Virus record (IMG/VR): IMGVR_UViG_3300045963_000145
Coordinates: 1 to 28,441 of that record
DNA: 28,441 nucleotides
Source of the DNA: a virus
Reading direction: 5' to 3' (one strand)
Position 1 is the stretch's first letter. Each line of letters starts with the position of its first letter. The translations under genes and the position numbers were made by a program. Positions 3,075 through 22,137 of the stretch are shown here, piece by piece. Under the pieces are notes generated by a model. The model was given only the letters and a program-made list of their open reading frames with translations, had not been told where the DNA came from and ran no database searches.

Positions 3075-3111
3075 GAGCTTCGATAGCGAAATGCAATCGA
3101 AGCTCTTTTTT
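3075..3111 (+). terminator. Rho-independent terminator after the DUF2829 gene
   Basis: A perfect 10-bp stem, GAGCTTCGAT (3075-3084) with ATCGAAGCTC (3096-3105), has an 11-nt loop and is followed directly by six T (3106-3111). It ends the portal/scaffold/DUF2829 unit and implies a separate start of transcription for the capsid gene downstream. Confidence 0.88.
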
Positions 3112-3133
3112 CGACTACACTGCGCCCAACGCT

Positions 3134-3230
3134 CCAGGCGCGCAGTCCTGGCCACGCGGGAACCGAGCGACACACGGTACACGTCCCAGGCACGATAGCC
3201 CTGGCCTCGCAGGCACGAAGCGACATTCGG
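3134..3230 (+). repeat. Two imperfect direct repeats with hairpins in the capsid gene leader
   Basis: The 253-nt gap between 3038 and 3292 has no convincing gene. After the terminator it holds two copies (3134-3177 and 3186-3230) of a ~45-nt element with a 52-nt period, about 70% identical when aligned by eye with one gap. Each begins CCAGGC, contains CCTGGCC 13-14 nt into the copy, and ends AGCGACA..CGG. Within each copy CCAGG pairs with CCTGG across an 8-9 nt loop, and these arms are conserved while the loops differ. This could be structured RNA in the capsid mRNA leader or a duplicated DNA-binding site. Confidence 0.7.
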
Positions 3231-3291
3231 CGAAGCGGTCTCTCGACCATCTAACTTCGATTCGTTTCTACTCTGCGAAAGGTGGACTGTC

Positions 3292-4434
3292 ATGTCCCTC
3301 ACCAATTTCACGCTGCTCACCACCGAGCAGAAGACCGTCTGGTCCCGCGACCTGTGGAAGCAGGCCCGCAACATGTCCTTCATCAATCGGTTCTTGGGCA
3401 AAGGCCCGAACTCGATGGTGCAGCACATCACCGAGCTGAAGAAGTCCGAAAAGGGCGCACGCGCCGTCATCACGCTGCTGGCCGACCTGGCTGGCGACGG
3501 TGTGGCCGGTGACCGCACCCTGGAAGGCAACGAAGAAGCGATGCAGACCTTTGACCAGGTCATCCGCATCGACCAGCTCCGGCACGCCAATCGCCACGAA
3601 GGCAAGATGGCCGACCAGAAGTCTGTCGTGGAATTCCGGGGCAACAGCCGCGACCTGCTGGCCTACTGGCTCAGCGACCGCATGGACCAGATGGCCTTCA
3701 GCGCCCTCGGTGGCCGCTCGTTCGCCATCCGTCCGAACGGTTCGACCCGCGTCGGCTCCGATCTGCCGAACCTGGAGTTCGCCAGTGACGTGACCGCGCC
3801 GAGCACCAAGCGCATGACCCGCTGGGACAACGTCAACGGCGTGCTGAAGGACTGGAACTCGGGCAACAACACCTCCAGCGCCATCGTCAACACCGGCGCT
3901 GCGGCCACGTCCGACTTCCCGGCCTGGCAGACCTTCGTGCAGCTCAAGGCCTACGCCAAGGACCGCTACGTCCGCGGCGTGATGGACGGCTCGGAAGAGA
4001 CCTACCACGCGTTCCTGACGCCGCAGGCCTTCGCCAAGCTGAAGAAGGACAACGACTACATGCTGAACCTGCGGCACTCGTCGTCGTCCAGCGTGAACGC
4101 GAACCTCTTCAGCGGCACCAGCGTGAAGATCGACGGTATCTACCTGCACGAGTTCCGCCATGTGCCGAACGTGTCGCAGGGCATCAGCGGCACCAACATG
4201 TACGGCGCCGGCCTGAATCTGCAGGGCTCGCAGATCCTGTTCTGCGGCGCGCAGGCCCTCGGCATGGCCGACATCGGTGCCCCCGATTGGAACGAGAAGG
4301 GCTTCGACTACGAGAACAGCCAGGGCATTGCGATGGGCAAGATCCTCGGCCTGCTCAAGCCCAAGTTCGGGACGATCTACGAAGCGAACACGACCGAAGA
4401 CTTCGGCGTGATCTCCTGCTACGTCGCTCAATAA
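3292..4434 (+). CDS. Major capsid protein, N4-gp56 / DUF4043 family
   Basis: A 380-residue protein, in the usual size range for this coat family. The region of residues ~35-140 shows the family signature: FLGKGPNSMVQHITEL, GDRTLEGNEEAM, IDQLRHANRHEGKMADQKSVV and LAYWLSDRMDQM. It would form the icosahedral shell with an HK97-type fold (family knowledge). The ATG at 3292 follows AAAGGTGG (3278-3285) with 6 nt spacing. It is preceded by a terminator and a repeat-bearing leader, so it probably has its own promoter, as expected for the most abundant virion protein. The stop codon overlaps the Shine-Dalgarno sequence of the next gene. Confidence 0.92.
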   Translation: MSLTNFTLLTTEQKTVWSRDLWKQARNMSFINRFLGKGPNSMVQHITELKKSEKGARAVITLLADLAGDGVAGDRTLEGNEEAMQTFDQVIRIDQLRHANRHEGKMADQKSVVEFRGNSRDLLAYWLSDRMDQMAFSALGGRSFAIRPNGSTRVGSDLPNLEFASDVTAPSTKRMTRWDNVNGVLKDWNSGNNTSSAIVNTGAAATSDFPAWQTFVQLKAYAKDRYVRGVMDGSEETYHAFLTPQAFAKLKKDNDYMLNLRHSSSSSVNANLFSGTSVKIDGIYLHEFRHVPNVSQGISGTNMYGAGLNLQGSQILFCGAQALGMADIGAPDWNEKGFDYENSQGIAMGKILGLLKPKFGTIYEANTTEDFGVISCYVAQ

Positions 4435-8787: not shown

Positions 8788-8809
8788 GTCGAAGCTCGAA
8801 GATAGATCG
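8788..8809 (+). promoter_or_regulatory. Conserved upstream motif, copy 1
   Basis: The sequence GTCGAAGCTCGAAGATAGAT lies between the stop at 8781 and the ATG at 8815. It shares 18 of 22 positions with the copy at 22116 and 17 of 22 with the copy at 12620. All three precede the first gene of a block. The only Shine-Dalgarno-like bases here (GAGG, 8809-8812) are just 2 nt from the start codon. A phage-specific promoter or activator site is the favoured reading. Confidence 0.6.
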
Positions 8810-8814
8810 AGGCG

Positions 8815-10755
8815 ATGGCTAACATCTTTCGTGCCCCTCTGGCTGTAGCACGGCGGGAAATCCCGCCGGTGCTGCAGGGCTTCGCCAGTGGGGTGATCGT
8901 CTCGCTGCTCGTGACCGTTCTGGGCACGTTGGCGATGCCTGCTGGCAAGCAGACTGCACCTGGCGCGGCCCAGCATCCTTCATCTCTCCGCACCAACGCG
9001 AACACCAGTCAGGGTTCGCCGAAGACACTTCTCGCCGATGCACAGTATCCTGTCGGCACAGAGCTGCCCCCGTCGTCGGTTAAGTTGCCTTGGATCGTCT
9101 CCGGCACGGCGCTGGGTTCCCCGGCAACGCTGCGCTCCACCGTCGCGCCGGTCGTCCCGAGTCAGTTGAACCAGCCGGGGCGCGCAGCAGACCGTGCGGT
9201 AAACCCCGACACGACGTGCAGCACCCCGAAGGTGTTGTTCGCCGATGCTCAGCCTCCCATCGGCGCAGAAGTCTTTCCCGCTACGCTGCTCCATGCAGCG
9301 CGGCTGGCCGTCAACGTCGACACCTCACGTACGGCGACCTGCTTGTATGTGCCGGTCGTCACACCGCCCCCGTTCATCGTCGCACCTACGGCGGCGTGGC
9401 ATCAGCGGCCGAGTCTGTCGGTCGGTTCGGAGACGAGTCAAGGTACAGCCAAGGCCCTCATTGCGGAAACGCAACAGCCGGTCGGCACAGAGCTGCAGCC
9501 TAGGTTGGCACTTCAGCGCTCTGTTGGCGCAGACACTTCGCAGTCGGCCTTCGCTGCTTTGAATGCGGGCGTCGTCGCGCCGCCCTTCGTTCCTGGGTTG
9601 ACAGCGTTCACGGCCTTGTGGCCTGTGACGGCAATCAATGCCAGTACCAGCCAGGGTACAGCCAAGGCACTCATCGCTGACGCACAGCAGCCGGTTGGTA
9701 CAGGGCTGCAGCCAGGTCTGACGCCGCAGCGCGCCATCGGTCTGGACACGTCGCGCTCAGCCGCGCCTGTCCTGTACGTCGGCGTCGTCGCACCTCCGGT
9801 TATCCCGACACAGACCTCATTCACAGGCCAGTGGCCCGCGACGGCAGTCAATGCCAGCACCAGCCAAGGTACAGCCAAGGCGCTGATCGTTGATGCTCAG
9901 CAGCCGGTTGGTACAGGGCTGCAGCCTGGGCTGGCGCTTCAACGTGCCATTGGCCTCGATACATCGCGCTCAGCCGTCGCGCTGCTCGCGCTGCCTGCCG
10001 CACCTTTCGTCCCTGCGTCGTTCATCTCAGCACCTGCTCTGCTGCGTCTCAACGTCGAGACGAGCCAGGCCCTTGCGAAGGTTCTGACCGCTGATGCGCA
10101 GCAGCCCATCGGCACAGAGCTGCGGTTCAGTTCGCCGCAGCCACGTGCTCTCGGCCTTGACACTTCACGTTCGGCTGCAGCATTCCTTGCGCTGCCTGCT
10201 GCACCGTTCACACCTGCATCGTTCATTGCGGCTCCGTTGCCCCGCAACATCGGCACCGAGACGAGCCAGAGTTTCGCCAAAGCCCTTACAGCGGATGCGC
10301 AGCAGCCTATCGGTGCTGAGCGCACTGAGTCGTGGGTACTGCATGCGCCGAGTCGCGTGTGGGCTAACACATCGCTCTCGACGCCGCGCACCCTGGTCAT
10401 CGTCCTGCCGCCTGTTCAGGGGCGCGGTGACTCGTGGGTCGGCCCGATCCACAAACTGCGTGGGTTCCAGCCCGCCAGCACGGCGGCGGGCTCTCCGAAG
10501 ACCCTCACCGCTGATGCACAGCGTCCGGTCGGCACCGCGCGCACTGAGGCTGCCCCGCAGCGTGTGCGTGAGCTGTCTATCTGGGCTCGTCGTGGGTTCC
10601 AGCTCCCGGTCGCGCTGGCGGGCGCGTACACACCGGCGGCGAGCTTTTACCAGGTGCCATTCGATGACCGGACCTACACGGTGACCTTTGATGACCGGAC
10701 CCTCGTGGTGGCCTTCAACGACCGCACGCTGACCGTGCCAAAGGATTCAGCATGA
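8815..10755 (+). CDS. Long repeat protein with N-terminal hydrophobic segment, probable fiber or stalk
   Basis: A 646-residue protein. Residues 21-43 form one hydrophobic segment (ASGVIVSLLVTVLGTLAM), unusual for a virion fiber. Residues ~60-580 hold eight degenerate repeats of about 66-74 residues. Each has TSQGxAKxLxADAQQPVGTEL, with the 'DAQ' triads at residues 75, 144, 218 (ETQ), 289, 360, 428, 494 and 567, and most have a second half with RAIGLDTSRSA and an Ala/Pro stretch. The C-terminus has three short beta repeats (VPFDDRT, VTFDDRT, VAFNDRT; 615-638). It is coupled by ATGA to a fiber-tail adaptor-like gene, suggesting a tail appendage. If translation began at the internal ATG 8935 the hydrophobic segment would be lost. 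Specific function unknown. Confidence 0.65.
   Translation: MANIFRAPLAVARREIPPVLQGFASGVIVSLLVTVLGTLAMPAGKQTAPGAAQHPSSLRTNANTSQGSPKTLLADAQYPVGTELPPSSVKLPWIVSGTALGSPATLRSTVAPVVPSQLNQPGRAADRAVNPDTTCSTPKVLFADAQPPIGAEVFPATLLHAARLAVNVDTSRTATCLYVPVVTPPPFIVAPTAAWHQRPSLSVGSETSQGTAKALIAETQQPVGTELQPRLALQRSVGADTSQSAFAALNAGVVAPPFVPGLTAFTALWPVTAINASTSQGTAKALIADAQQPVGTGLQPGLTPQRAIGLDTSRSAAPVLYVGVVAPPVIPTQTSFTGQWPATAVNASTSQGTAKALIVDAQQPVGTGLQPGLALQRAIGLDTSRSAVALLALPAAPFVPASFISAPALLRLNVETSQALAKVLTADAQQPIGTELRFSSPQPRALGLDTSRSAAAFLALPAAPFTPASFIAAPLPRNIGTETSQSFAKALTADAQQPIGAERTESWVLHAPSRVWANTSLSTPRTLVIVLPPVQGRGDSWVGPIHKLRGFQPASTAAGSPKTLTADAQRPVGTARTEAAPQRVRELSIWARRGFQLPVALAGAYTPAASFYQVPFDDRTYTVTFDDRTLVVAFNDRTLTVPKDSA
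8998..10560 (+). repeat. Eight degenerate ~210-bp coding repeats
   Basis: Repeats inside the preceding gene, with cores starting near 9005, 9212, 9433, 9646, 9859, 10060, 10261 and 10490. The third to fifth units are the closest, sharing runs such as GGTACAGCCAAGGC and CAGCAGCCGGTTGGTACAGG. The outer ones are more diverged, consistent with growth by unequal recombination in the middle of the array. Confidence 0.85.
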
Positions 10756-11042
10756 GTCTGAAGAAGTTCACCAAGCAGCCGACTGAGGTTCTCGATTACG
10801 ACTTTCTATTGGCTGACTGGTTCGGTACGACCGGCGACACGGCTCTGTCGTTCACCGTGACCGTGCCGACTGGCATCACGCTGCAGTCGTCATCGGTCTA
10901 CAGCGGCAACACGATCATCAAGCTCTGGATCAGTGGTGGTGTCGATGGCATCACCTATAAGTTCTCGATCAATGTCACGACGGCGAGCACACCCGCTCGC
11001 GTGAAGCAGATCGACTTTCTCGTCAAAGTGAAGGACACGTGA
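10752..11042 (+). CDS. Small fiber-tail adaptor-like protein
   Basis: A 96-residue beta-rich protein. The N-terminal phrase FTKQPTEVLDYDFLLADWFGTTGDTALSFTVTV and the central VYSGNTIIKLWISGGVDGITYKFSINVTT match a small phage family often annotated as fiber-tail adaptor: an immunoglobulin-like or jelly-roll domain with 'DPaevldY.fdw..wL..gd.I' and 'v.vwlsGG..G..Y.v...itT'. It would join an appendage to the tail. Its start overlaps the stop of the long repeat protein (ATGA), so the two are probably made in a fixed ratio, which supports a shared structure. Confidence 0.6.
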   Translation: MSLKKFTKQPTEVLDYDFLLADWFGTTGDTALSFTVTVPTGITLQSSSVYSGNTIIKLWISGGVDGITYKFSINVTTASTPARVKQIDFLVKVKDT

Positions 11043-11326
11043 TGGATACCGAATTCGAGCCGCGCCTTGGTGTTTGGGAACGTCACGGACAGACCTTGCT
11101 GCTGGGTGTGATCACTGCGGTATTGGCATTCGCTGCCAAGGCCCTGTGGGATGGCAGCACCGCGCAGGCGACAGCCGCCATCGAGATCAAAAACCTCTCG
11201 CTGCAGATTGCCAAGTTGGAGGGCACTGTGCAGGCGATGCAGTCCAACTTCGTGACCCGCGGCGAGTTCGCAGTCCACGAGACCCGCATCCAGTCGCTCG
11301 AATCGCGTCGCGCGAAGCAGCCATGA
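11042..11326 (+). CDS. Membrane protein with coiled coil, lysis cassette (holin or holin-associated)
   Basis: A 94-residue protein; ATG 11042 overlaps the previous stop by 1 bp (TGATG). A polar N-terminus of about 16 residues is followed by one transmembrane segment (residues 17-36) and then a coiled coil (about 46-93; KNLSLQIAKLEGTVQAMQSNF). A single TM helix plus coiled coil directly before a second membrane protein and an endolysin suggests a holin, an antiholin or an accessory. Single-TM holins exist, but the topology cannot be proven here. It is linked to the next gene by an ATGA overlap. Confidence 0.6.
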   Translation: MDTEFEPRLGVWERHGQTLLLGVITAVLAFAAKALWDGSTAQATAAIEIKNLSLQIAKLEGTVQAMQSNFVTRGEFAVHETRIQSLESRRAKQP

Positions 11327-11547
11327 ACCTGCTGCGCCAACTGCTCACAGGCATTGACGGGATCACGCACGACCTGGCGCGGTGGACCTGGGCCGGGTCG
11401 TGGCTCGGGGTGACGTGCACTGCGATCTGGCAGTGCGCGACGGGACATCCGCCCACGCTGGTCGAGCTTGCTGCCGCCTACAGCGCGGTCGCCGCTGGCC
11501 ACGCCGTGTCGATCAAGGCCAAGGAAACGACGGAGCCCAAGCCATGA
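11323..11547 (+). CDS. Putative holin
   Basis: A 74-residue protein immediately upstream of the endolysin, overlapping it by ATGA. A helix with arginines (1-20) precedes two moderately hydrophobic stretches (about 21-40, TWAGSWLGVTCTAIWQCATG, and 46-64, LVELAAAYSAVAAGHAVSI) and a charged C-terminal tail. Two weak membrane segments and small size fit a class II-type holin that would permeabilise the inner membrane and release or activate the endolysin. The family is not recognised, so position is the main argument; the neighbouring 94-residue protein is the alternative holin. Confidence 0.62.
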   Translation: MNLLRQLLTGIDGITHDLARWTWAGSWLGVTCTAIWQCATGHPPTLVELAAAYSAVAAGHAVSIKAKETTEPKP

Positions 11548-11981
11548 GCATCACAATCGAACAGTATTTCGGCGGCCGGCGCGAGTCGCATCCGACCGAG
11601 TGCAGCCCTGGCATCGAGGACAAGGCATCGCGCTCGGTGCCGATCTTCAATGCGCTGATCGCCGAGGGCGAGGCCGATGGCGTGGTGTTCCAGATCCAGC
11701 CGGCGGGCGACTTCGCAGGCTCGCAACTGGCCAGCGGGTGGCGCCCGCCGTCGGTCAATGCCTGCACGCCTGGTGCATCGCTGACCAGTCGGCACATGAC
11801 CGGCGAGGCAGCGGACCTGTACGACCCGTTCGGCCTGGTCGACGCATGGCTGATGTCGCCACGCGGCCAGACCGTGCTGGTGAAGCTGGGCCTGTGGATG
11901 GAGCACCCCGACAGCACACCGAAGTGGGCGCACGTCCAGACCGTGCCGCCGCACTCAGGCAACCGGGTGTTTCACCCATGA
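11544..11981 (+). CDS. Endolysin, peptidase M15 family (peptidoglycan D,D- or L,D-endopeptidase)
   Basis: A 145-residue cytoplasmic enzyme with no signal peptide. Zinc-binding motifs of M15 peptidases are visible: S82-x-H84-x2-G87-x-A89-x-D91 (SRHMTGEAAD) preceded by SGWRPPSVNA (64-73), and the third ligand in W128-A-H130. It would cut peptide cross-links or stem peptides in peptidoglycan once the holin opens the membrane. The length is typical of single-domain M15 endolysins without a separate wall-binding domain. It overlaps the holin-like gene upstream and the spanin gene downstream by 4 bp each. Confidence 0.9.
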   Translation: MSITIEQYFGGRRESHPTECSPGIEDKASRSVPIFNALIAEGEADGVVFQIQPAGDFAGSQLASGWRPPSVNACTPGASLTSRHMTGEAADLYDPFGLVDAWLMSPRGQTVLVKLGLWMEHPDSTPKWAHVQTVPPHSGNRVFHP

Positions 11982-12505
11982 CCCTCTACCGCCTGCTGGC
12001 CGAGATCGCCATCGCCGCGGCAGTCTGCGTCGGCCTGTTCGCCGCTGGCCACCACGGCGGCTACGTCTCCGGCACCGCGCACGTCCAGTCGGCCTGGGAT
12101 GCCGAGACGAAGGTCCGCAATGAGACGGCCATCAAGAAGCTCGAAGCCAACCGCATCGCTGGCGACGAGAACGATGAAACTCAACAGAAAGCACTCGATG
12201 AAGCGAATCGTCTACTCACTCACGTTACTGCTCTGGCTCCTACTGCCGCTGCTGCTGGTAATGGGCTGCGCATCCGTACCATCACCGTCGCCGCCGCTTG
12301 TGATCGAGGGGCCGGAAGTGAAGCCGCTACCCCCGCAAGCGCGCCCGCCAGTTCGCCCGGCGATCTGCTCGCCTACGTGCAGAGAAGGATGGACGAGGCT
12401 GCAGTTGGAGTTGTCGAATTTGCTGACGCTGCCTCTATCGCCGGCGAACTCTGCTGGGCCGATGGCAACGCCAATCGCGCCGCCGCCCTGAAAGCCAAAC
12501 ACTGA
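11978..12505 (+). CDS. Rz: Inner-membrane spanin (Rz-like)
   Basis: A 175-residue protein with an N-terminal transmembrane anchor (residues 5-24, RLLAEIAIAAAVCVGLFAAG) and a periplasmic, charged helical region (about 37-85) rich in Lys/Glu/Asn and containing VRNETAIKKLEANR. This is the i-spanin layout: anchored in the inner membrane, it bridges to an outer-membrane lipoprotein and fuses the membranes at the last step of lysis. The start overlaps the endolysin stop (ATGA). A different-frame lipoprotein gene lies entirely within it. The C-terminal part is Ala/Pro-rich and its sequence is constrained by the embedded gene. Confidence 0.8.
   Translation: MTLYRLLAEIAIAAAVCVGLFAAGHHGGYVSGTAHVQSAWDAETKVRNETAIKKLEANRIAGDENDETQQKALDEANRLLTHVTALAPTAAAAGNGLRIRTITVAAACDRGAGSEAATPASAPASSPGDLLAYVQRRMDEAAVGVVEFADAASIAGELCWADGNANRAAALKAKH
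12198..12491 (+). CDS. Rz1: Outer-membrane spanin lipoprotein (Rz1-like), embedded in Rz
   Basis: A 97-residue product in the +1 frame relative to Rz, wholly inside it. MKRIVYSLTLLLWLLLPLLL is a signal peptide and VMGC (Cys24) is the lipobox, giving a lipoprotein processed by signal peptidase II. The mature part is Pro-rich (PSPSPPLVIEGPEVKPLPPQ), typical of o-spanins that pair with Rz. ATG 12198 is chosen because AGAAAG lies 6 nt upstream; ATG 12174 would give a longer basic N-region. A mature length of about 73 residues is on the long side for Rz1 but within the range seen in embedded spanins. Confidence 0.82.
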   Translation: MKRIVYSLTLLLWLLLPLLLVMGCASVPSPSPPLVIEGPEVKPLPPQARPPVRPAICSPTCREGWTRLQLELSNLLTLPLSPANSAGPMATPIAPPP

Positions 12506-12522
12506 ACACGCGGCATCGACCA

Positions 12523-12574
12523 GTTGGGGGTGTCGTCGCGCTCCAGGTTCGTCGCCTGGTATCCAACCCCCAAC
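12523..12574 (+). other. Structured RNA segment after the lysis cassette
   Basis: GTTGGGGG (12523-12530) pairs with CCCCCAAC (12567-12574), and inside it CCAGG (12543-12547) pairs with CCTGG (12555-12559). The inner hairpin is preceded by CGCTCCAGG, the same nine bases as the first repeat of the capsid leader near 3131. It stands directly before a terminator, so it could be a 3'-end stabilising structure or the body of a small RNA. Confidence 0.5.
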
Positions 12575-12577
12575 CAG

Positions 12578-12619
12578 GCTCCGCTCGCTTGTACCTTGGC
12601 AGGCGAGCGGGGCGCTTTT
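12578..12619 (+). terminator. Rho-independent terminator after the lysis cassette
   Basis: GCTCCGCTCGC (12578-12588) pairs with GCGAGCGGGGC (12603-12613) over 11 bp with one G-U pair. GC and then four T (12616-12619) follow. It closes the 8815-12505 unit immediately before the second conserved upstream motif. Confidence 0.82.
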
Positions 12620-12641
12620 ATCGAAGATCGAAGATAGACTA
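12620..12641 (+). promoter_or_regulatory. Conserved upstream motif, copy 2
   Basis: ATCGAAGATCGAAGATAGAC begins at the base after the terminator T-run and ends about 10 nt before ATG 12651. It contains ATCGAAG twice in tandem. No Shine-Dalgarno sequence separates it from the start codon (CTAAACTCAGAC lies between). Terminator followed directly by this motif is the arrangement expected for a promoter opening a new unit. Confidence 0.65.
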
Positions 12642-12650
12642 AACTCAGAC

Positions 12651-13916
12651 ATGTCAATCGGCCGTGAACTTCAAGTCAATCTGAGCACGTTGCTCGGACT
12701 GAACAATCGCCGACCGGACTTCCGGCTTCGTACGAAGGATGGCGTGTTCATCCGCGCTGCGGTCAACGCCGACATCTCTGAGGCAAACACCGCCAAGCGC
12801 CGCCAGGGCTACACGGTTTCGATCACCGGCACCGACTGCCACTCGTTGTGGGTCGACGAGTTGAGCGATACCGCCTACTACGTCGATGGCACCTCGCTGT
12901 ACTACACCACGGACGGCACCCACAAGACCCTGATCACGAATACTCTGGTCGCCGGTCGCCGCCTGACCTATGCGCGCGTGGGTAACGAGGTGATGTTCAG
13001 CGACGGTGTGCGCAACTTGACGACGGCCGACAACAGCGCTGCCGCTGTGCCGCTCGGTGCGACACCGATGGCTGCAGCTCCAGCAGTGGCCGGCAGCACG
13101 GGCGGTGCGCTCGACGCCGGCTATTACACCGTGGCGTTCGGCTTCATGAACGCCAATGTCGAAATCTCGCCGTTGACGCCGAATGTTCAGGTGCTGGTCC
13201 CCGATGCCGGCAAGATCGTTGTCACGGGTTTGCCCGCCACATGGCCGGCGGATGCCGCCTCGCTGCTGGTGTATGTCAGCTCGACCAATGGTGACACCCT
13301 GCTGCTGGAGCGCAGGCTGAGCGCGCCGGCCACCTCGCTCGACATCGCGGTCCTGGCGCGCTCGGGCATGCAGGCGATGACGCAGTTTACTGCGCTGTTG
13401 CCGCCAGGCCGGATCATGCGGTGGTATGGCGGTCGACTGTACTCGGCCCTGGACACGCTGCTCTGGTACAGCGACGTGTACTCGCCCGCGCTCTGCACGC
13501 CGACCAAGAACTTCATCGAGTTCCCCAAACCGATCACTGTGGTTGAGCCGTGTGACGATGGTCTCTTCATCGTCGCCGATGCGGCCTACTGGCTCGGTGG
13601 CGATCCCACGAGCACGACTGCCAAGAAGGTCTCGCCGACGCGCGGCATCTACGGCACGGGTGGGCACAGCCTGGCTGAGCAGAAGTGCTTCTGGATGTCC
13701 GACCACGGTCTGGTCGTCGGCAGTCCTGGCGGTGCCATCGAGCTGGTGCAGGACGAGAACGTCGCCATCAACCAGGCCGCATCAGGAGCCTCCCTGTTCC
13801 GCGAGGTCGATGGCCAGCGGCAACTGCTGTCAGCTCTCTTCAGCGCAGAACCCAGCACGACCTCCGCCCGCAGCTACATGGACGCGGAAATCATCCGCAA
13901 AGGGACAACGCTATGA
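12651..13916 (+). CDS. Tail tube / nozzle-like protein (beta-propeller type)
   Basis: A 421-residue protein. The N-terminus (VNLSTLLGLNNRRPDFRL, then AVNADISEANTAKRRQGYTVSITGTDCHSLW) matches a podovirus tail family in which 'gLnn..p...lr.....av NvDi...g...rRpG' precedes repeated beta blades with short Trp/Tyr/Gly motifs (DGTSLYYTTDG, MRWYGGRLYSALDTLLWYSDVY, DDGLFIVADAAYWLGG). The T7 gp12 nozzle and P22 gp10 have comparable beta-propeller folds, and I infer a similar place at the tail tip. It starts a new transcription unit after a terminator and overlaps the next gene by ATGA. A Shine-Dalgarno is absent. Confidence 0.62.
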   Translation: MSIGRELQVNLSTLLGLNNRRPDFRLRTKDGVFIRAAVNADISEANTAKRRQGYTVSITGTDCHSLWVDELSDTAYYVDGTSLYYTTDGTHKTLITNTLVAGRRLTYARVGNEVMFSDGVRNLTTADNSAAAVPLGATPMAAAPAVAGSTGGALDAGYYTVAFGFMNANVEISPLTPNVQVLVPDAGKIVVTGLPATWPADAASLLVYVSSTNGDTLLLERRLSAPATSLDIAVLARSGMQAMTQFTALLPPGRIMRWYGGRLYSALDTLLWYSDVYSPALCTPTKNFIEFPKPITVVEPCDDGLFIVADAAYWLGGDPTSTTAKKVSPTRGIYGTGGHSLAEQKCFWMSDHGLVVGSPGGAIELVQDENVAINQAASGASLFREVDGQRQLLSALFSAEPSTTSARSYMDAEIIRKGTTL

Positions 13917-14407
13917 GTCTGATCCACGCCGGCTTCAAGTACCTCGTCAACATCATCCGCGACGGTGCGGTGATCGACTCGTTCGAGGCGCACAACCTCA
14001 TGCCCACCGAAGGGCAGAACCACATGCTCTCGACCGAGTACAAGAGCGGCACGCCGGTCGGCACCTGGTACGTCGGTCTCTTCGAGGGCAACTACACGCC
14101 TGTGCTTGGCGACACCGCTGCTGCGTTCCCCGCTGCAGCGACCGAGTGCACGGCCTACGTGCTCGGCACGCGCACGCCGTGGGTGCCCGGCACTGTCGCC
14201 GGCGGCATCCTCGACAACACCGCCAGCGTGTCGGCCTTCACCATGAATGCGACGAAGACGGTCTACGGCGGCTTCGTCTCTTCGGCTGCGGCCAAAGGGG
14301 CCGTGACTGGCGTGCTGACCTCGGTCGTGCGCTTCCCTTCACCCAAGCCTTTGCTCTCGGGTGACATCCTGCAGGTGACTGCAGGCATCACCCTGACTTC
14401 TGCCTAA
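13913..14407 (+). CDS. Conserved tail-region protein, unknown
   Basis: A 164-residue protein coupled by ATGA to the nozzle-like gene. The N-terminus IHAGFKYLVNIIRDGAVIDSFEAHNLMPTEGQNHML is followed by GTWYVGLFEGNYTPVLGDTAAAFPAAATECTAY and a C-terminal GVLTSVVRFPSPKPLLSGDILQVTAGITLTSA. It is predominantly beta with no membrane segment. The same pattern is familiar from phage and prophage tail operons, where it usually stands next to the following 144-residue protein. Function is not known. Confidence 0.6.
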   Translation: MSLIHAGFKYLVNIIRDGAVIDSFEAHNLMPTEGQNHMLSTEYKSGTPVGTWYVGLFEGNYTPVLGDTAAAFPAAATECTAYVLGTRTPWVPGTVAGGILDNTASVSAFTMNATKTVYGGFVSSAAAKGAVTGVLTSVVRFPSPKPLLSGDILQVTAGITLTSA

Positions 14408-14419
14408 AGGAGGCTCAAC

Positions 14420-14854
14420 ATGTCCCTCATGCTCTCGACTGCGCTGCGCAACAAGCTGCTCGACACCGGCTCGCTCAAGACCATCCTGGCCGGCGGCTCG
14501 ATCAAGATCTACTCCGGTGCCGTGCCAGCCACGGCCGATGCTGCGGTCAGCGGCACGCTGCTGGTCACGATCCTGAACGGCGGCAGCGGCATCAACCTCG
14601 ATACCGCTGCTGCGGGCGGCATCATCAACAAGGCTTCCGCCGAGACGTGGAGCAGCACCGTCGCGTCGGGCGGCACCGCGACGTACTACCGCCACGTTGC
14701 CTCGGGCGACACTGGCGCGCTGTCGACGACCGAGGCGCGCATCCAGGGCACGATTGCCACGGTGGGCGCGGACCTGAACCTCAGCTCGACCACGCTGACC
14801 GGCGGCGCGACCCAGGCCATCGACTACTACTCGGTCACGGTCCCGGCGTCTTGA
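14420..14854 (+). CDS. Conserved tail-region protein, unknown
   Basis: A 144-residue protein with a near-perfect AAAGGAGG site before ATG 14420. It shows the pattern of a common prophage/phage family: SIKIYSGAVPATADAAVSG, INKASAETWSSTVASGGTATYYRHV, and STTEARIQGTIATVGADLNLSSTTLTGGATQAIDYYSV. It is a small all-beta protein, probably part of the tail or an appendage base. The strong ribosome binding site suggests many copies. It ends 4 nt before the next ATG. Confidence 0.62.
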   Translation: MSLMLSTALRNKLLDTGSLKTILAGGSIKIYSGAVPATADAAVSGTLLVTILNGGSGINLDTAAAGGIINKASAETWSSTVASGGTATYYRHVASGDTGALSTTEARIQGTIATVGADLNLSSTTLTGGATQAIDYYSVTVPAS

Positions 14855-14858
14855 TCCA

Positions 14859-17264
14859 ATGGCTGTCGTTGTCACCGACGGGTTCCGGGGGACTCTTGGC
14901 GCTGTCAACAACAGCGTCCCCATCTCTAGGGACGCGAATTACCTGAACTGGACCGATGCCACTACCAAGTGGTATCAGGGCAGCACTGGCGCCGGGCTCT
15001 CGGGACTTTCGGCAAGCACGACTTACAAGGCGGACATCAGCAACGTCGGCAGTGGGTTCTCTACCCCCACTCGCGGCACCGGAACGTTCACCGCCGAGAT
15101 CGCCTGTTTCGGCCCGTTGGAGCAGTTCGGATGGAGCACTGACCTCGGGCTCTATTGCTACTGCTCGATCGACACCGCCGGCCTGGCCACGCTGACCGAG
15201 AACACCGTCGCCGGCGGGGTTCAGTCGTTCACCTTCGCGACGGGCGTGCCGCGCTCGACGGCTGTGCGCACCGTGCTGCGGCTGGAGGTGACCACCACCA
15301 CGACGCTGCTGTTCGTCGACAACGTTCAGGTGATCTCGAATGCGCGCGGCTTCTCGGCCACGACCTCGCGCATCGACCATGTCTGGTTCCAATACTCCAC
15401 CACGACCAGCGGCACACTGACGACACTGCCGGCGAGCTTCAGCGGCATCCTGGTCGACTACGTCAACACGCTGCTGGCCACGACGACCGGGCCGCTCGGC
15501 ACGCCGGTCGTGGGCGACTCGACGCCGCCGGTCTTGACTGGGTCGATCACGGCTCTCGACATCACCTCCAACGCGTTCCTTCTGAACTACCCGGCGGCGA
15601 CCGATAACGTCGCAGTCACCGGGTATGAACTCAGCACGAACGGCGGCGGGTCATGGATTGACCTGGCTATGGCCCTGTCAGTCGTCGTGGTGGGGATGGC
15701 CCCATCGACGGCCTACTCTGTTCGCGTGCGTGCGTACGACGCGGCAGGCAATCGCAGCACGGCGCTCTCGGCGACAGTGACGACGACGGCAGTGCTCGCC
15801 GACCCGTCACCGCCTACGCCTCCCGCGACAACGCGGAGCTATTACGAGAACGGCCCGTGGGAGTTGTACTTGCATGATGCTCACCCGGTCTTCCTGCTCG
15901 ACGTGCTCAACGTGCGCGCCAATAACACGCCGGTAGTTGTCTCCAAAGATACGCTGACCGCCTTCCAGGCAACCGACGCACAGCACACGGGGCCGTTGTT
16001 TGACGGCACCACCAACTCGATCTTCATCTATTCGAGGGCGAGCGGTGTGTGGGCCGCGAACGGAACGGTTGACGGCACGCGCGACGGGTCGAGCTACGGC
16101 GGCACGGTTGCCTGCAACGGCAACGGGACCAAGCTCATCCGCACGATCCCGGTCTGGAACGGACTGGTCAGCGGCATTTACCTCCCGCAGCAGTTTTACC
16201 TGACGACGTTTATCCTCTCCGGCGGTTCCTGGCAGCCGACTGCTGTGCAGGCAATTGGCCCGCTGCTCAACGAATTTTCTCCGATGTCGGACGCTGCGAT
16301 GGCCTTCAACGGCCAGGAAGCCATCGTGGTGTTGCGCCCCCCCACTGCCACGCTCTACCACCTCATGTGGAACGGCACCGGGTGGGACGTGCGGTTCCAA
16401 GTGTCGAACGTGGACAGCATCGTTTACGTCAACGACGACCTCTCGGTAATTGTCTGCGAGGATGCGCTCAGCAGCGATTTGCGGAAGCTCGTGGAGAACA
16501 CATCGGGCGGCTTCGACGTCACCATCGTCCCGCAGAGCCAGTGGAAGTCGACACAGGTCACCAACGCGAACGACTCGACCTCGCACATCGCCGCCAACAT
16601 CTCGGACCCGACCGGCGTCAGCCCCGTTGTCCTGAGCGAGTACGCAGTCATCGCGGAAGATGTGTACGAGCCGGTGAACACCCAGACTCTGGCTGCGACG
16701 ACCTATTACCTCCCCAGGCCGACTCTCTACGCGAACGACACCGAGGAGTTTCTGCTGCTCTTGACTGCAACGACTCCGACCGACCAGGTCACCAACCTCT
16801 ACCGGCGTACGAAGAAGTTCACAGAAGTGCCCGTGGTCATCGGCACGACCGACATCACCGGCACGTTCACCGACCTCATCATCGACGCCATCGCTGTCCA
16901 GTCGCGCCTCCCGATTGACGGCATTCAGGGCGCTCACATTACGTGGACCCCGGCGACTGGCTTGCCGACCGGTTACGAGTTCGGCATGAACGGCGAGCCG
17001 TTTCTCCCCTGCTCACCACCGCTGCTGTGCATCAGCAATTGGTACATCAGGCCGGGCCCTCCCGGTGAGTTCTCGATGGCCAGCGGTGCCATTACTCCGA
17101 ACTCCTTCTACACGTTCCGTGTGCGCGCCTTCGATGCCAAGGGTCGGCGTGGCCCGACGATCATGGTCGCGTTCGCGGTCGATGCGGACGGCAATGTCAT
17201 CGGCAGCGGGGTCGATGGCTCCAGCTTCTGGAGCAAGTTCGTCCAGACCTATGAAGCCACCTAA
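14859..17264 (+). CDS. Large multidomain tail fiber/tip protein with FN3 domains
   Basis: An 801-residue beta-rich protein. Residues ~1-205 look like a concanavalin/LamG-type domain (YLNWTDATTKWYQGSTGAG, TTTTLLFVDNVQVIS). Residues 221-312 are a clear fibronectin type III domain (DSTPPVLTGSITALDI, VTGYELSTNGGGSWIDL, STAYSVRVRAYDAAGNRS). A long central part (~325-680) has blade-like strands with Trp-Gly turns, and a second FN3-like region near 690-790 ends with YTFRVRAFDAKGRRGP. Such modular proteins usually bind host surfaces or decorate the tail tip. No Shine-Dalgarno is evident 4 nt after the upstream stop. The central region is not recognised. Confidence 0.65.
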   Translation: MAVVVTDGFRGTLGAVNNSVPISRDANYLNWTDATTKWYQGSTGAGLSGLSASTTYKADISNVGSGFSTPTRGTGTFTAEIACFGPLEQFGWSTDLGLYCYCSIDTAGLATLTENTVAGGVQSFTFATGVPRSTAVRTVLRLEVTTTTTLLFVDNVQVISNARGFSATTSRIDHVWFQYSTTTSGTLTTLPASFSGILVDYVNTLLATTTGPLGTPVVGDSTPPVLTGSITALDITSNAFLLNYPAATDNVAVTGYELSTNGGGSWIDLAMALSVVVVGMAPSTAYSVRVRAYDAAGNRSTALSATVTTTAVLADPSPPTPPATTRSYYENGPWELYLHDAHPVFLLDVLNVRANNTPVVVSKDTLTAFQATDAQHTGPLFDGTTNSIFIYSRASGVWAANGTVDGTRDGSSYGGTVACNGNGTKLIRTIPVWNGLVSGIYLPQQFYLTTFILSGGSWQPTAVQAIGPLLNEFSPMSDAAMAFNGQEAIVVLRPPTATLYHLMWNGTGWDVRFQVSNVDSIVYVNDDLSVIVCEDALSSDLRKLVENTSGGFDVTIVPQSQWKSTQVTNANDSTSHIAANISDPTGVSPVVLSEYAVIAEDVYEPVNTQTLAATTYYLPRPTLYANDTEEFLLLLTATTPTDQVTNLYRRTKKFTEVPVVIGTTDITGTFTDLIIDAIAVQSRLPIDGIQGAHITWTPATGLPTGYEFGMNGEPFLPCSPPLLCISNWYIRPGPPGEFSMASGAITPNSFYTFRVRAFDAKGRRGPTIMVAFAVDADGNVIGSGVDGSSFWSKFVQTYEAT

Positions 17265-18879
17265 CCTCGTCGGCAACCTCACCGGCAACGCGGCTGTTGG
17301 CTTCGGGGATGTGCGTGGCATGGCGACGATCCAGACGCCGTTCCTGACGACGGCGGGGCCTGGGTACATCGCACGCAAGAAGGGCGACTCGTCGGAGGTC
17401 ATCTCGCTGACCACCGACAAGCCGACTGACCCGTACCTGTGGGGTCTGTTCTGGGCTCCCGGCGCTGGCTACACCTCGACCTCCATCGCCGCCACGGTGA
17501 AGACCGTGGCCACGAACCCCGAGCTGGGCACTGGCGCTGACACGAGCGCGGAGCCGCCTGCCGGTACGACCCTGGAGCAGGGGCTCGGCATCTGGGTCGG
17601 CGATGACTACGTCCTGATGCTGGGCTCGGCCACTTCGTTCACGGCCATCGGCTCGCACGCGCCGCCGCTCATCACGAACAAGACGTGGTGGCCCGTGCTG
17701 ATGAACCCACGGAACTCGACGCAGGGTGTGCCCACGGATGCGCGCCCGCGCAGCAAGTCCATCTCGTTTCAGAGCATCGCCGACTGCAACTACTACCCTC
17801 GGTCGATCTTTTCTTCCGGCTGGAAGGACGAAGCCTCGCGGTACGTGTGGGGCTACTCGTTCATCGACTACTGCTCAAGCAGCGACACTGTCGTCCCGCA
17901 GCAGACCGTCACCGCCCCTGTCGTGGTCGTCGGCAACACCGGCATGCTGACCACCGCGGCGACCGCGCTACCGTACGAGCCCAGCCGTGCGCAGCAGGGC
18001 GGGCAAGTGTTCTGCACTGGCCCTGGCCAGCTCATCGCCTTCTTCCTGGTGACCGAGTGGCTGGACCCGGCGCTGCCGGCAGGGGCCAAGCTGATCCCGA
18101 AGGTGCTGCCGTTCTACTGTGTGTCGACCGACCACGGCGCTTCGTGGACACGGCACGATGCGACGTTCCTCGATACCTACCTGCGCCTCTTCGCGGTAGA
18201 TGTCGTGCACAACTATCAGCGCACGCACTACGACAACGCGCAGCTCGAACTGATCGGGAACAGCATCCACGTCAGCTACATCGGCAACGGCAAGAGTTTG
18301 ATCATCGTCCCGAGCCTGGTGGACTCGACAACGTCCGACAACCTGCGGGCCAAGCTGTTCCTGTACGACGGCGGGTTCACGCTGTTGAGCTGGGCGGCTG
18401 ACTCGTGGGTCGACGGCTCGTCCCTCACGTTGAACACGGCACGCGAGATCTGCTCACAGAGCCCGTCGTTCTGCTTCGGCGAAGGATGCCTCGCGGTCTC
18501 GGTCTCTGGGCCGGGCGCGATCTCGCGCATCCTGTTCACGACCGACTACGGAGCCTCGTGGTCGTCGGTCACGATGCCGTTCTACAACCACGTCCTTGGG
18601 GCCGGCATCACGCTCGCTCCACCCACCGTCGTTGCCCCATACCAAGGGCCTCTGAAACGAGGTCGCATCATCTACACTGTGAACAGGGGCGATGGATCAG
18701 GCTCAGACATCTGGCAGACGGACGGCTCCTTTGCCACGTTCTCGAAGCAGGCCAGCATGTTCAACAACTGCGCCGGCGATACGCCCAACGTTTGGCCCTC
18801 ACTCGGCGCGTACCAGATCCCGTTCCTCAACCGCGTGAAGGTCCGTGTCGACCTCCCGAATGAGTTCAACCAACCATGA
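17251..18879 (+). CDS. Asp-box (BNR) beta-propeller tail protein
   Basis: A 542-residue protein. ATG 17251 is used, overlapping the preceding gene by 14 bp, although the frame is open further upstream. Two Asp-boxes are visible: S292-T-D-H-G-A-S-W299 and T430-T-D-Y-G-A-S-W437. This S/T-x-D-x-G-x-S/T-W turn marks blades of sialidase-like propellers. Surrounding segments (ISFQSIADCNYYPRSIFSSGWKDEASRYVWGY; RGRIIYTVNRGDGSGSDIWQTDG) fit a propeller reporting on an exposed surface. No complete sialidase active site (arginine triad with FRIP motif) was found, so binding rather than hydrolysis is more likely. It overlaps the next gene by ATGA. Confidence 0.62.
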   Translation: MKPPNLVGNLTGNAAVGFGDVRGMATIQTPFLTTAGPGYIARKKGDSSEVISLTTDKPTDPYLWGLFWAPGAGYTSTSIAATVKTVATNPELGTGADTSAEPPAGTTLEQGLGIWVGDDYVLMLGSATSFTAIGSHAPPLITNKTWWPVLMNPRNSTQGVPTDARPRSKSISFQSIADCNYYPRSIFSSGWKDEASRYVWGYSFIDYCSSSDTVVPQQTVTAPVVVVGNTGMLTTAATALPYEPSRAQQGGQVFCTGPGQLIAFFLVTEWLDPALPAGAKLIPKVLPFYCVSTDHGASWTRHDATFLDTYLRLFAVDVVHNYQRTHYDNAQLELIGNSIHVSYIGNGKSLIIVPSLVDSTTSDNLRAKLFLYDGGFTLLSWAADSWVDGSSLTLNTAREICSQSPSFCFGEGCLAVSVSGPGAISRILFTTDYGASWSSVTMPFYNHVLGAGITLAPPTVVAPYQGPLKRGRIIYTVNRGDGSGSDIWQTDGSFATFSKQASMFNNCAGDTPNVWPSLGAYQIPFLNRVKVRVDLPNEFNQP

Positions 18880-20858
18880 CCATCCTTCAACTTGGCGCGC
18901 GGCTCTATCGCGATGCGGTCCTCGTCACGCAGGAGGTGGTCAATGGTGGGACGACCGTCACGCAGCTCGTGCGCCAGCGTGTCGGCGGCTTCTACCCGAC
19001 CGCGCAGTACAACGCCGCGCTCGCAGCGGTGCATGCGCAGATCGGCTACTGGACGACCTACGACGAGGCTGCGGCCTCTGACTCGTTCATCAACTTCCTC
19101 GACTACTCGCTGCTGCAGCCCGCCACGCCGGCTGGGCTTTCAGACGCTGAGGCCGAGGAGCTGCGCGGGTGGGCCTTCGCTGGTTTCCCGAACATCGACG
19201 GCTTCCAAGGCTGGACGTACCTGTACCAAGATTTCCTCGTCCCGGTTCAAGTCGACCAGGCCGACGTCACTCAGACCCAGGTCAACGTGCTGACGCCTGG
19301 GTGGGACGCGGGTGCGATCTCGGCGGACTCGTTCTCTGGCTGGGGCCGGGTGAAGTTCAATGTGCAGGCCTCAAACAAATTCGTCATCGGCATGTGCGAC
19401 GGCGGCAACCCGCTCGACCCCTACGGTCGGTTCTTCGGTGTAGCCTTCGAGAAGGATGTCTGCTGGGACTTCTACCGCACCACCAGTCACGCGACCAACC
19501 CGATGGGCCAGCTCGATGAAGGCAACCTGGGCGGCTTGCGCTACACCCCGGTCGATGACGCCACCACATTCACCGTGCAGTGGCTCCGCAACATCCTGAC
19601 GATCACGCAGTACAACGCAGCCGGCTCCGTGGTTTGGACGTCGACGCGAGGCCTGGCTCTGGGCGACGAGATCGCGACGGGTTCATGGACTCTCGGCGCG
19701 GCGATCTACAGCCCCGGCTCGTGGGTGCTGGGTTATGAGGTGAGCGGGTGGGTCGGCATGGATGAGGTGCTGCCGGCGCTCGCAGGGCGCGGCGGTGCAG
19801 GTACGCCGAAGTCCCAGGCCATCACGCGCATGCCGAAGCTGCAGAGCAGGGGCCGGATGGCCACGCGCGGCGCGGGCTCGCTACCCAAGCTGGCCAGCAT
19901 GGGCGGGCGGCGCATCGCTGTGTCGTCGGCCTCGCTGCCCAAGCTCACTGGCCGTGGCTCGCAGATCGACGTTTTCGTCGGTGCCAACCGCGCGCAGTCT
20001 CGCCTGCCGCTGATGACCAGCCACAGCCACTCGATCACGGGCGAGGTGGGTCAGGCGGCGGTCAGGCTCCCGCTGCTGAAGGCACGCGGTACGAAGAACA
20101 AGCTGGCCGACAGCGCCGTCTCTCTGCCGCGCCTGCGCGGCGCTGGCTTCGCACTGCCTGCCGATCACGCCACGATGTACTCGGCGATGTTCGCCTCGGT
20201 GACGGCTGTGCCGACGCGGCTCACCCTGGCGGTGCTGACGTCTACGCTCACTGCCACCCCGACGATGGCCAGCGCGATGCTGTTCAACGTCAGCATGCCG
20301 ACCGGGGTCACGTCCTCGACGCCGACGACCCTGAAGCAGATCCTCCAGGCGCTGATGCTCACCGAGGTCAGCACCGACGCGAGCGTGCCGTTCACGCCGG
20401 TCGGTGCCGAGGTCTGGGTGATGAACATGGCGAACAACGCCACGTCAACCTACGAGGACTTCAACTTCAACTCGTTCGGCTCGTTCAACGGGCGCGGCTA
20501 CGGCCTGCGGAAGGACGGTCTCTACTTGCTCGAAGGCGACACCGACGCCGGCTCGCCGATTCGCGCGAGCGTGTCGTACGGCAAGCAGGACTTCAACTCG
20601 AAGGCCCGCAAGCACCTTGAGCGCGCCTACGTCGGCGTGTCGTCGAAGGGCACCATGTACCTCAAGGTGACGGCCAACGGCACCGAGTACATCTATGCGG
20701 CCCGCACCTCATCGACAGAGCTGAAGCAGCAGCGCTTCGATGTGGGCCGTGGCCTCCAGGCCACGTACTTCACGTTCGAGCTGTTCAACAAGAACGGCGG
20801 CGACTTCGAGATCGACAACGTGTCGTTCTTTGCCATCGACTTCACACGGAGAGTTTGA
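18876..20858 (+). CDS. Large tail protein with seven LP-repeats and a conserved C-terminal domain
   Basis: A 660-residue protein. Residues 1-290 include a globular beta part with AISADSFSGWGRVKFNVQASNKFVIGMCDGG. Residues 298-425 contain seven short repeats of the form x-L-P-x-L-x-x-R-G (L/M-P pairs at 299, 319, 336, 354, 377, 398 and 417), spaced 17-23 residues apart. A C-terminal domain (about 515-660) has EDFNFNSFGSFNGRGYGLRKDGLYLLEGDTDAG, DFNSKARKHLERAYVGVSSKGTMYL and GRGLQATYFTFELFNKNGGDFEIDNVSF, a combination familiar from tail-tip proteins of diverse phages. LP-type repeats occur in the same tail proteins elsewhere. It probably forms part of the tail tip or a fiber base. Confidence 0.62.
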   Translation: MTILQLGARLYRDAVLVTQEVVNGGTTVTQLVRQRVGGFYPTAQYNAALAAVHAQIGYWTTYDEAAASDSFINFLDYSLLQPATPAGLSDAEAEELRGWAFAGFPNIDGFQGWTYLYQDFLVPVQVDQADVTQTQVNVLTPGWDAGAISADSFSGWGRVKFNVQASNKFVIGMCDGGNPLDPYGRFFGVAFEKDVCWDFYRTTSHATNPMGQLDEGNLGGLRYTPVDDATTFTVQWLRNILTITQYNAAGSVVWTSTRGLALGDEIATGSWTLGAAIYSPGSWVLGYEVSGWVGMDEVLPALAGRGGAGTPKSQAITRMPKLQSRGRMATRGAGSLPKLASMGGRRIAVSSASLPKLTGRGSQIDVFVGANRAQSRLPLMTSHSHSITGEVGQAAVRLPLLKARGTKNKLADSAVSLPRLRGAGFALPADHATMYSAMFASVTAVPTRLTLAVLTSTLTATPTMASAMLFNVSMPTGVTSSTPTTLKQILQALMLTEVSTDASVPFTPVGAEVWVMNMANNATSTYEDFNFNSFGSFNGRGYGLRKDGLYLLEGDTDAGSPIRASVSYGKQDFNSKARKHLERAYVGVSSKGTMYLKVTANGTEYIYAARTSSTELKQQRFDVGRGLQATYFTFELFNKNGGDFEIDNVSFFAIDFTRRV

Positions 20859-20860
20859 TC

Positions 20861-21850
20861 ATGACCAGCCCCGCAGATTCCGTCGCCGCACTGACTGCAC
20901 AGGTCTGGGCTCAAGCCACGCGCCTGTCCGGTGTGGTGGACGACAAGGTCAACGAGGCGCTGTCTCTGGCCAGCACCGCGCCGTCCATCGCCGCGCCTGA
21001 CCTGATCTATGCGCCCGCACTGCCGAGCACGCCGGCACTGCCGACGATGAGTCAAGCCGAAGCGACGGGACTCTTTGACTCGACCAAGACCGACATCCTG
21101 AACATGCTGGTGGGAGAGTTCACCACCTTCATCGGCACCTACTTCGCGAATGACGCCTACCTCACCGACGCCGAGGACTGGCTGCACCAGGCCCTGGCTG
21201 TCGGCGGCACCGGCATCAACCCGACCGTCGAGGCTCAGCTCTGGGAGCGTGTGCGCTCAAAGGCGCTGACCGATGCTGCACGTGCGCAGGACGAGCTGTC
21301 CGTGACCTGGGCCGCGCGCCGGTTCCCGGTGCCGCCTGGTGCGTACATGAACGCCGGCCTGGTGCTGGCCCGTGACTCGATGGATGCCACGGCTGAAGCC
21401 GCCCGCAGTCAGGCCATCGAGTCGTTCAAGGTCGAGGTCGAGAACACCCGCATCGCCATCGAGCGCGCCATCGCGCTGCGGGGCGTGGCCATGCAGACGG
21501 CCAGTGAGTACGTGCGCACGCTGGCCACGGGGCCGCAGGTAGCCGCCAGCGCAGCCGGCACGATCATCGACGCCGAGGCGCGCTTCGCCAGCACGATGAC
21601 CGACTACTACCGCGCGCAGCTCACGGCTGTCGACATCCCCGTGCGGATCGCCACCACGAACTCCACCCTCAAGGTGCAGACGAATGAGGCGAACCTGCGC
21701 ACGGCAATGGAGACGCTGTCGGCCCGTGTCTCGGCGGTGATCTCGCAGGCGCAGATGCTGGCCTCACAGGCAGCGGCTGCGTTCAACTCGATCCACACCC
21801 AGGCCTCGATCTCTGGCAGCGACTCGACCAACACGAACATCCAGGGGTGA
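20861..21850 (+). CDS. Alpha-helical tail-region protein, unknown
   Basis: A 329-residue protein. ATG 20861 is preferred to an upstream TTG (20855); GGAG at 20848-20851 is the likely ribosome binding site. Apart from a Pro/Ala linker (IAAPDLIYAPALPSTPALP, about 43-61) it is nearly all helix, with a long C-terminal coiled coil (about 175-320). The central YLTDAEDWLHQALAVGGTGINPTVEAQLWERVRSKALTDA is a recognisable pattern of proteins next to tail-tip genes in podoviruses and siphoviruses. A needle, plug or ejection-related role would fit, but no direct evidence is visible. Confidence 0.58.
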   Translation: MTSPADSVAALTAQVWAQATRLSGVVDDKVNEALSLASTAPSIAAPDLIYAPALPSTPALPTMSQAEATGLFDSTKTDILNMLVGEFTTFIGTYFANDAYLTDAEDWLHQALAVGGTGINPTVEAQLWERVRSKALTDAARAQDELSVTWAARRFPVPPGAYMNAGLVLARDSMDATAEAARSQAIESFKVEVENTRIAIERAIALRGVAMQTASEYVRTLATGPQVAASAAGTIIDAEARFASTMTDYYRAQLTAVDIPVRIATTNSTLKVQTNEANLRTAMETLSARVSAVISQAQMLASQAAAAFNSIHTQASISGSDSTNTNIQG

Positions 21851-21859
21851 TGGCGCACA

Positions 21860-21886
21860 ATGGAACCTCCTTCGAGGAGGTTCCAT
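21860..21886 (+). promoter_or_regulatory. Perfect hairpin sequestering the ribosome binding site of the next gene
   Basis: ATGGAACCTCCT (21860-21871) and AGGAGGTTCCAT (21875-21886) are perfectly complementary around a 3-nt loop TCG. The downstream arm contains the ideal Shine-Dalgarno AGGAGG (21875-21880) and the first two bases of the start codon ATG (21885). In the folded mRNA both would be hidden. It has no T-tract, so it is not a standard terminator. Confidence 0.85.
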
Positions 21887-22076
21887 GAACAAGGTGTCTG
21901 AGGTGATCTTCAATGCCGGGGTCATTGCCCGTGAGAAGCTCACGGGGCGTAAGGCCTCTGTCAAGGAATACAACGAGCGCCATCGCTTCGTCCACACCAG
22001 CAGCTTCAAGAACCTGATGGTCGTCGGCGCGGTCATCGGTGTCGCGCTCTGGCAAGTGCTGAGCAAATACCTCTAG
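21885..22076 (+). CDS. Small tail-anchored membrane protein
   Basis: A 63-residue protein. The N-terminal ~40 residues are charged and amphipathic (VIAREKLTGRKASVKEYNERHRF); residues 43-61 form one hydrophobic segment (NLMVVGAVIGVALWQVL), ending three residues before the C-terminus. This predicts an N-in, C-out membrane protein. The perfect AGGAGG with 4-nt spacing, hidden in a hairpin, shows the frame is real and controlled. It sits between tail and ejection genes. It might be a late holin regulator, a superinfection or defence protein, or a minor virion membrane component; none can be chosen from sequence. Confidence 0.65.
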   Translation: MNKVSEVIFNAGVIAREKLTGRKASVKEYNERHRFVHTSSFKNLMVVGAVIGVALWQVLSKYL

Positions 22077-22080
22077 GTTC

Positions 22081-22100
22081 AGGCCGGCTGTCGCTGGCCT
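22081..22100 (+). other. Short hairpin between the small membrane gene and the ejection block
   Basis: AGGCCGGC (22081-22088) pairs with GCTGGCCT (22093-22100), 8 bp with one G-U pair and a TGTC loop. No T-run follows, so termination here is possible but not strongly supported. Confidence 0.4.
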
Positions 22101-22115
22101 TCGGCACCTGCGACA

Positions 22116-22137
22116 ATCTAAGCTCTAACATAGATCG
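22116..22137 (+). promoter_or_regulatory. Conserved upstream motif, copy 3
   Basis: ATCTAAGCTCTAACATAGAT ends about 10 nt before ATG 22146, the first gene of the ejection block. It matches copy 1 at 18 of 22 positions. Only a weak GGAA lies between the motif and the start codon. Confidence 0.62.

Follow-up and report, generated by a model that had tools for sequence, protein, structure and literature searches.

A short, oriented sequence box recurs upstream of genes throughout a family of tailed phages, and the reading we prefer, with a probability of roughly 0.45, is that it serves as the dispersed operator of a phage-encoded, immunity-type repressor placed at promoters of the host RNA polymerase. 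The box came to light in the window, which is an entire IMG/VR record (28,441 bases). It begins within a portal gene, ends within a giant virion gene and carries all its convincing genes on the plus strand, and is probably a fragment of a tailed-phage genome of ~60–70 kb. The nearest named phages, Kochitakasuvirus KPP25/phiR18 (Pseudomonas) and Acidovorax phage AP1, have virion genes in common with the window (major head protein identity 56% for KPP25/phiR18 and 48% for AP1) but, unlike it, lack the box.

A scan of both strands of the window at ≤3 mismatches returned three copies of the box and no others, and 100 dinucleotide shuffles of the window gave 0 matches, so the three-copy repeat described in the original prediction is real and not a product of chance. 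The box starts that it gave (8788, 12620, and 22116) lie one base low, and the gaps to the assigned ATG codons (8815, 12651, and 22146), put there at 8–12 nt, were measured as 6, 10, and 9 nt. A position weight matrix built from relatives revealed two additional boxes that had been missed; they lie in front of the major head protein gene and would be expected to control it. A weak match at 26451 is located inside a gene. The features are summarized in Table 1.

Table 1. Boxes, adjacent elements and associated genes in the window.
Feature	Position	Strand	Remarks
Box copy 1, TCGAAGCTCGAAGATAGATC	8789..8808	+	matrix score 27.1; 0 mismatches; 6 nt to ATG 8815
Box copy 2, TCGAAGATCGAAGATAGACT	12621..12640	+	precedes head closure Hc3 gene; no Shine-Dalgarno; 3 mismatches; 10 nt to ATG 12651
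Box copy 3, TCTAAGCTCTAACATAGATC	22117..22136	+	matrix score 31.2; 3 mismatches; 9 nt to ATG 22146
Fourth box, TCGACCATCTAACTTCGA	3243..3260	+	score 22.7; 31 nt before head protein ATG 3292
Weak fifth box, TCGAAGCTCTTTTTTCGA	3097..3114	+	followed by TACACT
TAAACT, -10-like hexamer directly after box 2	12640..12645	+	sequence; class enrichment
TACACT, -10-like hexamer after distal head protein box	3116..3121	+	class enrichment
Intrinsic terminator (hairpin 12578-12613 plus T-run)	12578..12619	+	ends one base before box 2
Major head protein gene	3292..4434	+	PHROG 334, 2.5e-71; 56% to KPP25
Gene after box 1, 646 aa	8815..10755	+	possibly tail-related
Gene after box 2, head closure Hc3	12651..13916	+	PHROG 8040, 2.6e-50
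Gene after box 3, encoding a 744-aa virion protein; followed by the giant virion gene	22146..24380	+	putative start

The position of a box directly behind a strong terminator was confirmed for copy 2, the only such case among the window sites. As a general feature, terminator adjacency was rejected, as it was found at 3 of 86 sites in relatives compared to 14 of 929 control genes. In two relatives, a box with a perfect intrinsic terminator immediately behind it lies upstream of the head protein gene (L014:6566-6606 and L015:2896-2945). The head protein leader also contains a short hairpin (window 3213-3231; present in L014, L020, L042, and others) with two-sided stem changes in five of six pairs across 18 sequences, a conserved loop of approximately GCGACA/GACGACA and no Rfam match. 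The giant virion gene at the end of the window (24383-28441, cut off) corresponds to a protein of 3217 aa in G001 (L114:9276-18926, plus strand), whose conserved part carries a HEALH motif; the protein matched nothing in Pfam or the PDB.

The box comprises 18–20 bp of the form TCKAA-NN-TCKAA-N-WTMGA(TC), to which all information is confined. It can be read in two ways at once, namely as a 7-bp direct repeat and, over positions 6–20, as the 15-bp palindrome GATCKAASTTMGATC. The direct repeat TCGAAG-N-TCGAAG noted originally was borne out by parallel changes that keep both halves across the window copies (TCGAAG-C-TCGAAG, TCGAAG-A-TCGAAG, and TCTAAG-C-TCTAAC), although statistical support for such paired changes in the two halves is weak (p = 0.04). 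In G016 and other relatives, the palindrome occurs without the extra half-site (14 copies of the core in G016 vs. 0.13 expected). No hairpin-like covariation was detected at positions 3, 10, and 16 (pairs 3/16 and 10/16), and an RNA hairpin within the box was rejected on this ground. The likely ligand is thus double-stranded DNA rather than RNA.

While a first single-protein scan of IMG/VR found nothing, an alignment-based scan retrieved more than 560 stretches that encode a relative of the major head protein. Of these, the best 80 were fetched, and 20 records were searched, mostly read whole; most relatives are metagenomic and may be incomplete, and gene starts were taken from a simple codon-usage script. 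The box was present in 16 of the 20 relatives, with more than 50 matches compared to one for the backwards pattern. A second, independent pattern matched 52 loci (~31 from this phage family, the remainder mostly low-GC strangers) against 8 for the reversed control. The degenerate window box matched only four IMG/VR contigs, of which at least two also turned up independently as close relatives, with head proteins 88% and 82% identical. In 11 genomes, 77 sites scored above 19, where column-permuted matrices predicted 0.15; 54 of them were non-coding, in genomes that are ~12% non-coding. A same-strand ATG followed within 30 nt in 30 of the 77 cases and an opposite-strand ATG in two, and a looser start rule gave 75 same-strand vs. 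23 opposite-strand cases among 141 sites. Because orthologous sites recur in these position counts, p-values derived from them overstate independence. Upstream of the head protein gene, 28 of 76 loci have a site, mostly at -133 to -156, compared to 20 of 760 windows chosen at random. The orthologue of the 744-aa gene was box-preceded in G001, G004, G009, and G014. The original prediction had expected matches only in intergenic positions of one orientation; the sites are mostly intergenic and on the strand of the gene, and a family-wide, oriented site kept at orthologous genes is supported. Host chromosomes contained no box beyond chance; the matches there sit essentially only on a prophage contig, and a host regulon was rejected. 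Herminiimonas sp. CN and a Janthinobacterium MAG contain related prophages or phages devoid of the box (L166 and L167), which point to hosts among the Oxalobacteraceae.

The genes preceded by sites encode head, head-closure, ejection, and small-terminase proteins as well as replication proteins such as a RecB-like nuclease. The proposed division of the late region into separately controlled units was consequently too narrow in the word "late", since replication genes and short intra-operon gaps in relatives also have boxes. Three classes of position were distinguished. At unit heads far from the ATG, for example in the head protein leader, a -10 hexamer (TATATT, TACACT, TAGAAT, TAAACT, or TATAGT) follows 1–8 nt after the box, and TANNNT was found there at 26 of 66 ATG-distant sites vs. 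2 of 66 and 7 of 66 in control windows. This agrees with the -10 element of host sigma-70; ATG-near sites show TAGAAT, not TATAAT. No conserved -35 hexamer was detected 15–19 bp upstream of the -10, TTGACA occurs only occasionally upstream of the box and no information is held there, in agreement with the original view that the sites do not form a good sigma-70 promoter with a -35 element. What looked like a -10 at positions -4 to 1 was discarded, since it arises from the TAA or TGA with which the upstream gene ends right at the box.

Boxes of the second class lie 8–11 nt before the ATG and frequently terminate in TAGAAT. Of the hexamers most strongly enriched 6–9 nt before starts in this family, TAGAAT alone is clearly not of the Shine-Dalgarno type (23 vs. 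1.8). Where a box lies within 13 nt, 28% of the genes have a Shine-Dalgarno sequence, compared to 70% of the remaining genes. A leaderless promoter has its -10 hexamer ~12 bp ahead of the start codon, and its transcript begins at the ATG. The spacing observed is that of leaderless promoters (PMC3160421), and together with the missing Shine-Dalgarno it suggests leaderless virion genes in Gram-negative phages. Copies of TAGAAT-N6-9-ATG are also found where the TCKAA box is missing, in many cases ahead of the small terminase gene (L034:2888, L050:3035, L049:2592, and others). The third class comprises intra-operon boxes, which directly adjoin the stop codon of the preceding gene or themselves provide it; those 4–8 nt from the ATG are purine-rich and supply the Shine-Dalgarno of the next gene (AA at positions 14–15 in 13 of 21 vs. 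1 of 29). These boxes must accordingly be transcribed.

The box is probably read by a phage-encoded protein, because it is a dedicated, oriented site, conserved at orthologous genes and absent from host chromosomes. Genomes with an integrase have more boxes than those without one (p = 0.012, n = 14 genomes), a link that favours a function in lysogeny and may also reflect shared ancestry. The best candidate for the binding protein, and only a candidate, is a family of 125–145 aa found in 11 box-bearing records (among them G010, G013, and G019 with few sites). It has a predicted winged-helix fold (pLDDT >90 over approximately residues 11–60) and weak matches to Fur, PerR, MarR, and PadR types (E ~0.05–0.1). 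It is missing from G001 and G002 and present in the box-poor G017 and G018, and its association with boxes is marginal (p = 0.052). A 277-aa protein next to MoxR/VWA genes was dropped as a regulator owing to its presence in box-negative relatives, and a conserved 77-aa protein, also considered, has no recognised domain. The 277-aa protein, a MoxR-type AAA ATPase and a DUF2201 VWA protein are conserved and lie close together among the replication genes (L115:13407-17462, minus strand, in G001; L118:5264-9100, plus strand, in G009). A common sigma factor as reader was rejected, since sigma-like proteins are sporadic, with none in genomes other than two. G004 encodes a FliA-like sigma factor of 284 aa (L126:3736-4590, minus strand; Sigma70_r2 7.8e-20, r4 1.2e-8) between ORF018 and the head protein genes, and G012 a sigma-like protein of 177 aa (L141:12051-12584, minus strand; Sigma70_r2 3.1e-6) beside virion genes and with no relatives in the other genomes examined.

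For the preferred repressor we infer the following mechanism. A phage-encoded, probably dimeric DNA-binding protein would bind the 15-bp palindrome and, in the clade of the window, an additional TCKAA half-site located 7 bp upstream. At unit heads, the box immediately precedes or overlaps the -10 hexamer of what would be a host RNA polymerase promoter, and the bound protein would control initiation there; between closely spaced genes of an operon it would stop elongation. Its most likely role would be that of an immunity-type repressor which silences early and late units together, each unit opening once the repressor goes. This assignment is favoured because of the intra-operon copies and the link to integrase. 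Against it stand the lack of a recognisable repressor (in the relatives, HTH_3 was absent or below threshold and no homologue of P1 C1 was found), the lack of a conserved -35 that a host promoter acting unaided should show, and G001, the closest to the window among the long records, which keeps boxes with no integrase found and, like G002, lacks the winged-helix candidate. A further reading appears unlikely, in which a phage-encoded winged-helix regulator unlike known phage repressors and activators would read one and the same box in early and late operons, both at their heads and in the gaps within them, and the unit-head box with its own -10 (TAGAAT) at leaderless spacing would fix promoter, mRNA 5′ end, and translation start in one element.

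The competing explanation to be taken most seriously, tentative as it is, holds that the box replaces the -35: a phage-encoded activator would bind it and bring the host RNA polymerase to the adjacent -10, as Lpa of phage P1 does at the P1 late promoters, and transcripts of unit heads would start at or just before the ATG, leaderless or with a very short leader. The missing -35 and the leaderless geometry are better explained in this manner than by a repressor, and the TAGAAT enrichment before starts, the reduced Shine-Dalgarno frequency and the same geometry in P1 late promoters also speak for it. Less well explained are the intra-operon boxes, which have no -10 and a Shine-Dalgarno inside them, and the tracking of box number with integrase; furthermore, the palindrome overlaps the -10 and the likely start, boxes occur in early and late modules, and no Lpa homologue was found. 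On balance we favour the repressor over the activator.

Two further explanations concern a different polymerase or a different ligand. The original prediction had offered a dedicated binding protein or a phage RNA polymerase as the reader; the dedicated site is upheld, and the polymerase is not. A self-contained, oriented element of 18–20 bp that ends in ATA-GA resembles T7-class promoters, but a T7-type polymerase (PF00940) gave 0 matches in the 20 relatives while the T7 positive control scored 9.9e-110 (the window itself being a fragment), the giant virion protein has no PDB match, and neither the palindromic core in relatives nor the -10 hexamers after the box fit such a promoter, which makes this the least credible of all the readings. 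An N4-type virion polymerase with hairpin promoters was rejected, in view of the lack of covarying arms and of a PDB match for the giant protein. It is likewise improbable, to a slightly lesser degree, that the box functions at the RNA level, as a signal for translation or processing close to starts, in the manner of the Start-Associated Sequences of cluster K mycobacteriophages, oriented repeats located immediately upstream of starts and conserved across relatives (PMC3203893). Boxes close to ATGs, the missing Shine-Dalgarno and the Shine-Dalgarno-like variants in the boxes closest to the ATG would suit such a signal, but boxes stand anywhere from 4 to ~30 nt, and in some cases more than 130 nt, ahead of the ATG, and keto/amino degeneracy with a palindrome without covariation fits DNA and not an RNA stem. 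The Start-Associated Sequence GGGATAGGAGCCC is itself unrelated to the box and has a Shine-Dalgarno-like core, whereas the box is tied to -10 hexamers.

Among known systems, mycobacteriophage L5 with its cluster A repressor comes closest to the repressor reading: its operators and stoperators occupy promoters and short gaps between genes and follow the direction of transcription (PMC9283540). The box shares the many dispersed copies at promoters and short gaps and the orientation with transcription. It differs in that the L5 sites are 13 bp long, asymmetric and bound by a monomer, whereas the box has 18–20 bp with a palindromic core and would probably be bound by a dimer; moreover, no L5-type repressor was identified in the box phages, which belong to a different family and have different hosts. 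The C1 protein of P1 has 22 operators dispersed in one genome (PMC8546580). These are scattered like the box and have the string GCTCTAA in common with it, by chance or convergence, but they do not score with the box matrix, and neither a C1 homologue nor sites resembling ATTGCTCTAATAAATTT were found in the box phages. The P1 late promoters, which are not C1 sites, consist of a -22 box for Lpa and a -10 and, like the box, place a short symmetric element directly upstream of the -10 in the place of the -35, 19 bp in all; the box differs in also serving replication genes and intra-operon gaps.

For a large and mostly uncultured phage family, the box represents a first regulatory code, and it lets operon boundaries be predicted from sequence. 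The box system would also offer a direct test of L5-style genome-wide silencing outside the mycobacteriophages.
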